Assembly: GCF_014962245.1 (NCBI RefSeq)
Contig: NZ_CP063144.1
Span: 672,582 to 736,581 of the forward strand
From: Thermosphaera aggregans
GTDB taxonomy: Archaea > Thermoproteota > Thermoprotei_A > Sulfolobales > Desulfurococcaceae
DNA: 64,000 bases
Direction: 5' to 3'
Part shown: in pieces, positions 2,811-22,638 of the stretch
Numbering within the stretch: position 1 is the first letter of the stretch
Layout: every line of letters begins with the position of its first letter
Translations under genes and position numbers: made by a program
Notes under the pieces: generated by a model
Database searches by the model: none
What the model was told of the DNA's origin: nothing
What the model saw: the letters and a program-made list of their open reading frames with translations, nothing else

Positions 2811-3140
2811 TTAAAACAACCTGCTTCCCGGAGCAACTGGTTTTTCAACAGTGGCTATCACGGGCGGATCAGTATCTGTTGCTAGTAGCATGCCTTTGCT
2901 TTCAAGCCCCATCATTTTTTTCGGCTTCAGGTTTGCAACCACAATGATGTATTTACCAATGAAGTATTCGGGTGGGTACCATTTACCCAGGCCCGCTATG
3001 ATCTGCCTCTCGCCCAAGGCCCCGAGGTCAACGACTAGCCTGATAAGCTTCTCACTCCCCTGCACCTTCTCTGCGGATTTGACCAGTCCAACTCTCAGCT
3101 CGATGCGCGAAAAGTCCTCGATCCCTACTTCCTGGCTCAT
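2811..3140 (-). CDS. metG: tRNA-binding domain protein, MetRS beta/C-terminal type
   Basis: 109 residues that match the stand-alone OB-fold tRNA-binding domain found as the C-terminal part or beta subunit of methionyl-tRNA synthetase (also related to CsaA and EMAP-II). Typical segments are FSRIELRVG, GSEKLIRLVVDLG, RQIIAGLG and NLKPKKMMGLESKGMLLA. It likely raises tRNA affinity of the catalytic MetRS, which is not in this window. It converges on acdA with a gap of 20 bases and is divergent from thiI. The symbol refers to the family; it could equally be a free tRNA chaperone. Confidence 0.85.
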   Translation of the reverse strand: MSQEVGIEDFSRIELRVGLVKSAEKVQGSEKLIRLVVDLGALGERQIIAGLGKWYPPEYFIGKYIIVVANLKPKKMMGLESKGMLLATDTDPPVIATVEKPVAPGSRLF

Positions 3141-16114: not shown

Positions 16115-16214
16115 GCCGCCGTAGCTCAGCCCGGTGGAGCGCCGGCCTTGTAAGCGTTTTGAGTAGGCCCGTCGAGAAAGCCGGTGGACGCGGGTTCAAA
16201 TCCCGCCGGCGGCT
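16115..16214 (+). tRNA. tRNA-Thr (anticodon TGT) with a 26-base intron
   Basis: All stems can be paired by eye: acceptor GCCGCCG with CGGCGGC (16207-16213), D stem GCTC/GAGC, anticodon stem CCGGC/GCCGG, T stem GCGGG/CCCGC around TTCAAAT. The discriminator base is T and CCA is not encoded. The anticodon loop CTTGTA-A is interrupted after position 37 by 26 bases (16153-16178), the canonical archaeal intron place that the splicing endonuclease cuts in a bulge-helix-bulge. A short T-run follows the gene. Confidence 0.93.
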
Positions 16215-21468: not shown

Positions 21469-21562
21469 GCTAAGAGTTATTTAGAAGAACAGAGTTTTTA
21501 AACAGGAGTATTTACATCACTATATGTAAAATTAATAAGTCGGGTTTTCTAGATATATGATA

Positions 21563-21710
21563 AGGGCCAGATGCCTACGCTCTGCCCGCCAGACCCCCGG
21601 TTTAGTTGGATCACTCAGCATGATCCAGCGTGACCGGGTACCCTAGGGCAGAGCGGTGAGGGACGTCCCCGGGCGAGTCTGGAGGGACGTCCGTAGGCAG
21701 GCCACACCCC
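21563..21710 (+). ncRNA. Candidate structured non-coding RNA with a pseudoknot
   Basis: This stretch lies in the 327-base gap between aspS and the gene at 21796, has no ORF and is far more GC-rich than its flanks. By-eye pairings: GGCC 21565-21568/21700-21703, GCCTACG 21573-21579/CGTAGGC 21692-21698, CTCTGCCC 21580-21587/GGGCAGAG 21646-21653, CCAGAC 21589-21594/GTCTGG 21677-21682, CCCGGT 21596-21601/ACCGGG 21633-21638, TGGATCA 21607-21613/TGATCCA 21621-21627. The CTCTGCCC and CCAGAC helices cross, giving an H-type pseudoknot inside a closing stem. Strand is tentative; a TATA-like AAATTAATAAG near 21530 favours plus. I see no RNase P, SRP or 5S signature. Confidence 0.6.
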
Positions 21711-21795
21711 CTCAACACTTCTAAGAGTTTATCCACGTGGAGAATTGCGATTTTAATACAAGTGGTTGCTTCAAATATTTCATGAGGTATTCAAC

Positions 21796-22638
21796 ATGAC
21801 TGTGAAAATGAAAAAATGCTTTAAGGCTTTAAGGAAGAAGATAGTTCTTCTAGCATTGCTTAATTTAATAGTAATAGGAATATCCTACTATCTCCCTTCG
21901 CTTCAAGCAGGGGGTTATGATTTCCAGGCCGATTACACTCCAACGCAATGGGTTTTAAGATTCAGGCTGTTGAACATTACACTATTCGTTACCCCTCCAA
22001 CAGAGGAGGTTACTGTTAGGCTGATCATCCCCGGAGTTTTGAACGAGACTGTTGCCTCATTCGAATACGTCCCCGGGCTATTGTTCTACGAGCCGAATGC
22101 TCTTCTCGAGAAAACATTGGATGAGCTGAGGAAGGATTTCTCACCAAACATTGATGTCAGGTTGGATTTAAGCGTGCCGGGATACCATCCAGCGATCCCA
22201 ACATACGCCTATCACAGGAGGGACGGGGTTTGGGAGTTAAGGCTTCAATCACCCGGTTACTTAGATGCTTACGCCGAGTTAGAGGTTCTGATGAAGGATC
22301 CCTTTGTTTCTATAACTAACAATGGAGGGTTAACAGGCATTGTCAGGCTGACTGGAAAATCCCCCAACCAGTCGAAGGGCTTAGAGGTTGAGGTTCCACC
22401 TCACGGGGTAGCTGACTCGGTAATGGAAGGAGTTTTTACTAATGTAGAAGCGGATGTAAGGCTCTACTTGATTAACAGGTTATTATGCTTCAGCTACTTT
22501 GACGGTACCTTGTATTTTGCTTTGAGAGACAACATGATCCTTGTGATTCCACCCTTGTTACTAGCCGATTCCATATACCTGCTTCAAGCATGCAGAAAAA
22601 CCATAAAGGGGGCTAAAAAAAGGACTAAAAAGATTTAA
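21796..22638 (+). CDS. Membrane protein with outer beta-rich domain
   Basis: 280 residues from ATG 21796, which has GAGGT 9 bases before it and an ATTTTAATAC promoter element at 21749-21758; a TTG at 21766 would add ten residues. Two hydrophobic segments, at about residues 15-35 (KIVLLALLNLIVIGISYYL) and 240-265 (MILVIPPLLLADSIYLLQA), bracket an outer domain of about 190 residues with NITL, NETV and NQSK sequons. The tail is basic and cytoplasmic. I recognise no family. It precedes the ABC-transporter binding-protein gene by 40 bases. Confidence 0.5.
   Translation: MTVKMKKCFKALRKKIVLLALLNLIVIGISYYLPSLQAGGYDFQADYTPTQWVLRFRLLNITLFVTPPTEEVTVRLIIPGVLNETVASFEYVPGLLFYEPNALLEKTLDELRKDFSPNIDVRLDLSVPGYHPAIPTYAYHRRDGVWELRLQSPGYLDAYAELEVLMKDPFVSITNNGGLTGIVRLTGKSPNQSKGLEVEVPPHGVADSVMEGVFTNVEADVRLYLINRLLCFSYFDGTLYFALRDNMILVIPPLLLADSIYLLQACRKTIKGAKKRTKKI

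Follow-up and report, generated by a model that had tools for sequence, protein, structure and literature searches.

Archaeal tRNA and rRNA introns are marked by a bulge-helix-bulge (BHB), in which a 4-bp helix is combined with 3-nt bulges and an inner helix lies in the excised part (PMC4090602, PMC7714728); crenarchaeal splicing endonucleases also accept relaxed forms of the BHB (PMC4090602, PMC6379350). In Thermoproteus, a structured RNA is excised and circularised via such a motif: the leader and trailer of the circular permuted SRP RNA of Thermoproteus tenax form a BHB that is cut by the tRNA-splicing endonuclease, and a TATA element is located close upstream (PMC4731332). HgcG (Pab40, RF00064) of Thermococcales, a GC-rich non-coding RNA (ncRNA) of AT-rich hyperthermophiles, starts with an H/ACA hairpin. 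The RNA described here occupies positions 21565-21703 (+) of the window, i.e., of the whole 64,000-nt stretch of DNA analysed. It shares with the introns the 4-bp helix, a 3-nt inner bulge together with a candidate outer one, and the inner helix, with the T. tenax RNA a candidate leader/trailer BHB on a structured ncRNA and a TATA-like element close upstream, and with HgcG its GC-rich composition in an AT-rich hyperthermophile. Unlike the introns, it has no tRNA or rRNA exons, and the conserved structured element would be the excised part and not the exon; unlike the permuted SRP RNA, it has another fold, is not an SRP RNA, and its circularity is predicted only; HgcG, in turn, is without the enclosing helices P0 and P1 and the arrangement of loop L4 found here. 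The locus represents an uncatalogued family of structured RNA with a well covarying double pseudoknot, in hyperthermophiles whose ncRNAs are little studied.

Confident matches in DNA searches were limited to the three genomes of the window genus (g1), among which the element stays constant while its flanks drift apart, so that by sequence alone the RNA would seem genus-specific. The covariance model R1, built from this genus only, failed to reach distant homologues. These were reached via aspS synteny; the aspS-flanking regions, suggested as a place to look in the initial annotation, proved the key to them. Gaps adjacent to aspS elsewhere in the family hold the same RNA architecture in very different sequence. 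We segmented 19 homologues by hand, and their helices pair almost completely. Both pseudoknot helices are present in 16 of them, and the other three, all from genus g5, are reduced (PK1 of at most 4 bp and unseen in G058; PK2 unseen). The model R2, built from 15 of the 19 sequences, recovered the held-out genomes G130 (7e-5), G193 (1.4e-3), G200 (3.6e-7), G158 (5.1e-7) and G191 (1e-8); the reduced g5 forms scored 26-30 bits with R2 in a search of the aspS loci and were missed by the genome-wide search. Altogether, the RNA of the window has at least 23 homologues, and at least 24 genomes carry it; they span 12 genera, all within a single archaeal family that is probably Desulfurococcaceae. We regard it as virtually certain from these comparisons that the homologues form a real family of structured RNA.

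Outside the family, searches of 229 genomes from the class and of 398 sampled from the phylum gave no convincing R2 match; the best out-of-family candidate (G037) sits within an ORF and was rejected. Two weak matches were likewise set aside, one within the family (G170) and one outside it (G154), which by eye resemble SRP RNA and a tRNA, respectively. Phage records searched with the element gave no match, and none of the open-access papers to which the literature survey was confined describes the RNA. Within the family, searches of g4, g10, g11 and g12 yielded no copy; some of the genomes concerned are incomplete. At seven g4 loci (L047, L048, L051, L052, L055, L056 and L062) a tRNA gene holds its place upstream of aspS. 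Those of L048 and L056 apparently carry insertions, and none of these g4 genomes yielded the RNA at another position.

Rfam 15 gave no match to the RNA in the window region, even at a relaxed threshold, and no family above the gathering threshold at the RNA in 12 homologous loci. RNase P RNA and SRP RNA are ruled out by strong matches for both elsewhere in the same genome. A weak HgcG match in one homologue reaches 16.7 bits against a cut-off of 77 and covers largely AT-rich upstream DNA; R2 does not match an HgcG homologue, and the trinucleotide after GGCY, which an H/ACA guide would keep as ACA or ANA, varies (ACA, ACT, ATG, AGG, AGT). HDV-like ribozymes are nested double pseudoknots in which P4 stands apart and a conserved catalytic C precedes the 3' strand of P2. 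In the window, the last pseudoknot strand is preceded by CGA, which is reminiscent of HDV J4/2, and the initial annotation had noted a loose likeness for GGGCGA; it does not hold, as P4 here encloses the pseudoknot strands, a different topology, and CGA is not conserved (TTG, TGA, T, AT and others replace it). A diverged member of any of these known classes is thus extremely unlikely.

The family shares one layout: P0, a 3-nt bulge and P1 are followed by a junction of P2/P3 and P4, and each strand of the P2/P3 internal loop is base-paired to loop L4, giving PK1 and PK2. In the window, with all features on the + strand, P1 pairs TGCCTAC (21572-21578) with GTAGGCA (21693-21699) and covaries. P2 (GCTCTGCCC, 21579-21587, with GGGCAGAGC, 21646-21654) has double-sided changes in 9/9 modelled pairs. 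The P3 hairpin (21596-21638) has a lower stem CCCGGT/ACCGGG, with double-sided changes in six of seven modelled pairs, and a variable upper stem, here TTGGATCA/TGATCCAG. J2/4 (GGTGAG, 21655-21660), in whose place several genera have an extra hairpin, leads to P4 (GGACGTCCC, 21661-21669, with GGGACGTCC, 21684-21692; double-sided changes in 6/8 modelled pairs). PK1 is formed by CCAGAC (21589-21594) and GTCTGG (21677-21682), the latter within L4, and shows double-sided changes in four of its six pairs. PK2, of just 3 bp in the window species, joins CCC (21641-21643) to GGG (21671-21673), also within L4; three of four modelled pairs changed on both sides.

Several of these helices had been read correctly from the window by eye: CTCTGCCC (21580-21587) with GGGCAGAG (21646-21653), the PK1 strands and a closing stem GCCTACG/CGTAGGC all lie exactly where the initial annotation placed them. 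That annotation overlooked PK2 as well as the end helix of 4 bp and the 3-nt bulge beside it (21565-21571 / 21700-21703), and left P4, which encloses the 3' pseudoknot strands, undescribed. The crossing helices themselves stand; their assignment to a simple H-type pseudoknot does not, since the two strands of one internal loop are both paired to a single hairpin loop. The broader proposal, that this is a functional RNA whose structure includes two crossing helices, is supported by conservation in relatives, by covariation of the crossing helices with compensating changes in other genera, and by the lack of a clear Rfam match to a known class.

The nested fold of 21555-21720 (+) has an energy of -84.4 kcal/mol, against -60.6 +/- 4.5 in dinucleotide shuffles (z = -5.3), with none of 200 shuffles as good; the folds of two sister species beat their shuffles too (z of -6.2 and -3.8). 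Compensating changes in P2 are visible already within the genus (T-A to C-G, G-C to A-T). Across the aligned core, 99.1% of cells are paired, against 29-54% when partners were slid by 1-3 columns, and double-sided changes occur in 32 of 45 pairs. Since the alignment (A8) had been adjusted manually to match the structure, the covariation table is biased towards it. A permutation check in which L4 was swapped between genera needs no column alignment, with the segments hand-picked: the observed complementarity was reached in 0/20000 permutations for PK1 and 20/20000 for PK2. The homologues contain 50 GU pairs and no AC mismatches, which places the RNA on the + strand; the minus strand is ruled out, since the GU pairs would turn into AC mismatches. 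On this comparative evidence, both crossing helices are very probably genuine.

That PK1 and PK2 form at the same time as the nested helices is what we infer from the arm lengths: those of P2 and P4 change jointly (rho 0.73 among 19 related sequences), as would suit an arrangement in which the two arms lie alongside each other and L4 folds down on the P2/P3 internal loop. Alternatively, P2/P4 and PK1/PK2 might alternate in a conformational switch, with a ligand, a protein or temperature selecting the state. In favour of a switch, both helix sets covary, and in the nested minimum of G041 and G009 PK1 replaces P2; the joint change in length, on the other hand, is expected if both arms stand while L4 docks, and no constant target gene follows the RNA. 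We consider switching improbable. In junction riboswitch aptamers, such as the purine class, a hairpin loop docks on a neighbouring arm, as is proposed here. They differ from the present RNA, in which one loop pairs with both internal-loop strands and no consistent gene lies downstream.

The RNA is divergent from aspS at nearly all loci; in G009 it follows the 3' end of aspS. Its downstream neighbour varies: a gene linked to an ABC transporter in the window genus, an L35Ae-like ORF in g3, and in both g5 and g9 an ORF that is roughly 200 aa long. In G030 a tRNA comes first and a convergent gene lies beyond it, and in G130 the neighbour is a convergent 327-aa ORF, so that these last two homologues have no same-strand protein gene directly after the RNA. 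A cis-acting leader (riboswitch, attenuator or 5'-UTR intron) would agree with the many genomes in which a same-strand gene begins 50-100 nt downstream, and Haloferax offers a precedent for a BHB-bearing 5'-UTR intron (PMC7714728). Such a leader is nevertheless very unlikely, given the changing and in part convergent neighbours and the TATA-like element that the downstream gene of the window has for itself; the riboswitch variant, which should invariably precede the gene or pathway that it regulates, was rejected on the same ground. Since the downstream gene varies between genomes, the RNA is not the leader of one gene, and we are confident that it is an independent ncRNA gene.

A TATA-like candidate promoter element, TTAATAAG (21532-21539 (+)), matches the consensus about 26 nt upstream of the end helix; it is preserved in all three genomes of the genus, whereas adjacent bases drift. 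Most homologues have a similar element some 30-45 nt upstream of the RNA. As the surrounding DNA is AT-rich, these elements are supportive only.

Some further features of the neighbourhood deserve mention. The gene after the RNA in the window (21766-22638; 290 aa, no Pfam match) precedes a solute-binding protein gene; within the family it is confined to g1, g2 and a single g5 genome. Two g2 genomes have a strong GC-rich hairpin directly 3' of the RNA with a T-rich stretch behind it (L039, about 2977-3012, - strand; L037, about 1728-1757, +), for which a terminator or an extra domain may be suggested. Just past the window, at G000:C1:737238-738473, a further class II synthetase-like gene, present in nearly every genome of the family, shares about 37% identity with aspS.

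The ends of the RNA deserve special attention. P0 pairs GGCC (21565-21568) with GGCC (21700-21703), and this central helix has 4 bp of the GGCY type in all sequences checked, the 3' strand being GGCY in 23/23 homologues and followed by an invariant A. On the 5' side, P0 is followed by an A-rich inner bulge (AGA, 21569-21571) and then by P1 as inner helix; the bulge has 3 nt in 23 homologues (AAC, AAA, AGA, AAT, GAA or AGC), that of G135 being alternatively readable as 4 nt. Both the helix and the inner bulge are as a BHB or its relaxed form HBh' requires. A second 3-nt bulge and an outer helix are needed for a full BHB, and not for HBh'. The proposed outer bulge is ACA (21704-21706), of which the first A is invariant. 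When spacings of 0 to 8 nt after P0 were compared with shuffled flanks, outer pairing was enriched at the 3-nt spacing only (sum 37 vs 13.8 in shuffled flanks, reached in 0/3000); permutation between genomes at this spacing gave 1/5000, and sampling one genome per genus a mean p of 0.004. The outer helix has 3-5 pairs in 5/23 homologues, is absent from six and amounts to just one pair in the window species; many of these ends are therefore at best relaxed HBh' motifs.

The proposed cuts, between 21570 and 21571 and between 21705 and 21706, fall two nucleotides into each bulge and would yield a product of 135 nt (21571-21705 (+)), which the BHB geometry predicts to be circular. In the predicted circle, P1 is capped by the 7-nt loop GGCYANN. 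We consider it reasonably likely, judging from the sequence, that the RNA is processed at a BHB and circular. The same fold could instead belong to a linear independent ncRNA that is never cut or circularised, with P0 and its bulge serving as a protein-binding or end-protecting element. The near-universal P0 and 3-nt bulge, set beside an outer helix that is weak or absent in many homologues, speak for it, and the enrichment of outer pairing solely at the spacing that a BHB requires speaks against it. We regard a linear RNA as unlikely, though a serious contender.

Under the favoured reading of a BHB-excised circle, a promoter just upstream would drive a short precursor, whose body would fold compactly around the junction of P1, P2-P3 and P4, with P2 beside P4 and L4 paired to both internal-loop strands. 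The ends would form the BHB, in which two A-rich 3-nt bulges flank the 4-bp GGCY:GGCY helix and are followed outwards by a helix that varies. We infer that the tRNA-splicing endonuclease would cut both bulges and that an RNA ligase would join the ends of the excised body, giving a stable circle with the conserved GGCYA exposed in the 7-nt hairpin loop. Shape is conserved and unpaired sequence hardly so, which suggests that the circular RNA would most likely act as a protein-binding scaffold and not as an antisense guide. This explanation as a whole (independent ncRNA, double pseudoknot, BHB-excised circle and protein scaffold) has in our view a little better than an even chance. If the BHB reading is true, the product of the tRNA-splicing machinery here is a dedicated circular RNA, distinct both from introns and from permuted SRP RNA. 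More tentatively, at somewhat under an even chance, the family may constitute a new, family-wide class of archaeal ncRNA, a double pseudoknot circularised through that machinery, in which the conserved GGCYA would initially belong to the cutting signal and later serve as the functional hairpin loop of a circular RNP.

An A-rich motif of the AUGA / GA type occupies the internal loop of P3 in L058, L060, L061, L065-L068 and L072 and sets them apart from g1, g2 and g5. It is possibly a protein-binding motif and not a regular kink-turn; a kink-turn was rejected for these loops, present in several genera, because GA is not consistently beside the stem.

Elsewhere in the window, a tRNA gene with an intron (16115-16214) was missed by ARAGORN in its default mode; its anticodon is probably UGU (Thr). 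The intron has a regular BHB, CUUG/CGAG with the bulges UAA and AAA, which is of the geometry proposed for the ends of the RNA.
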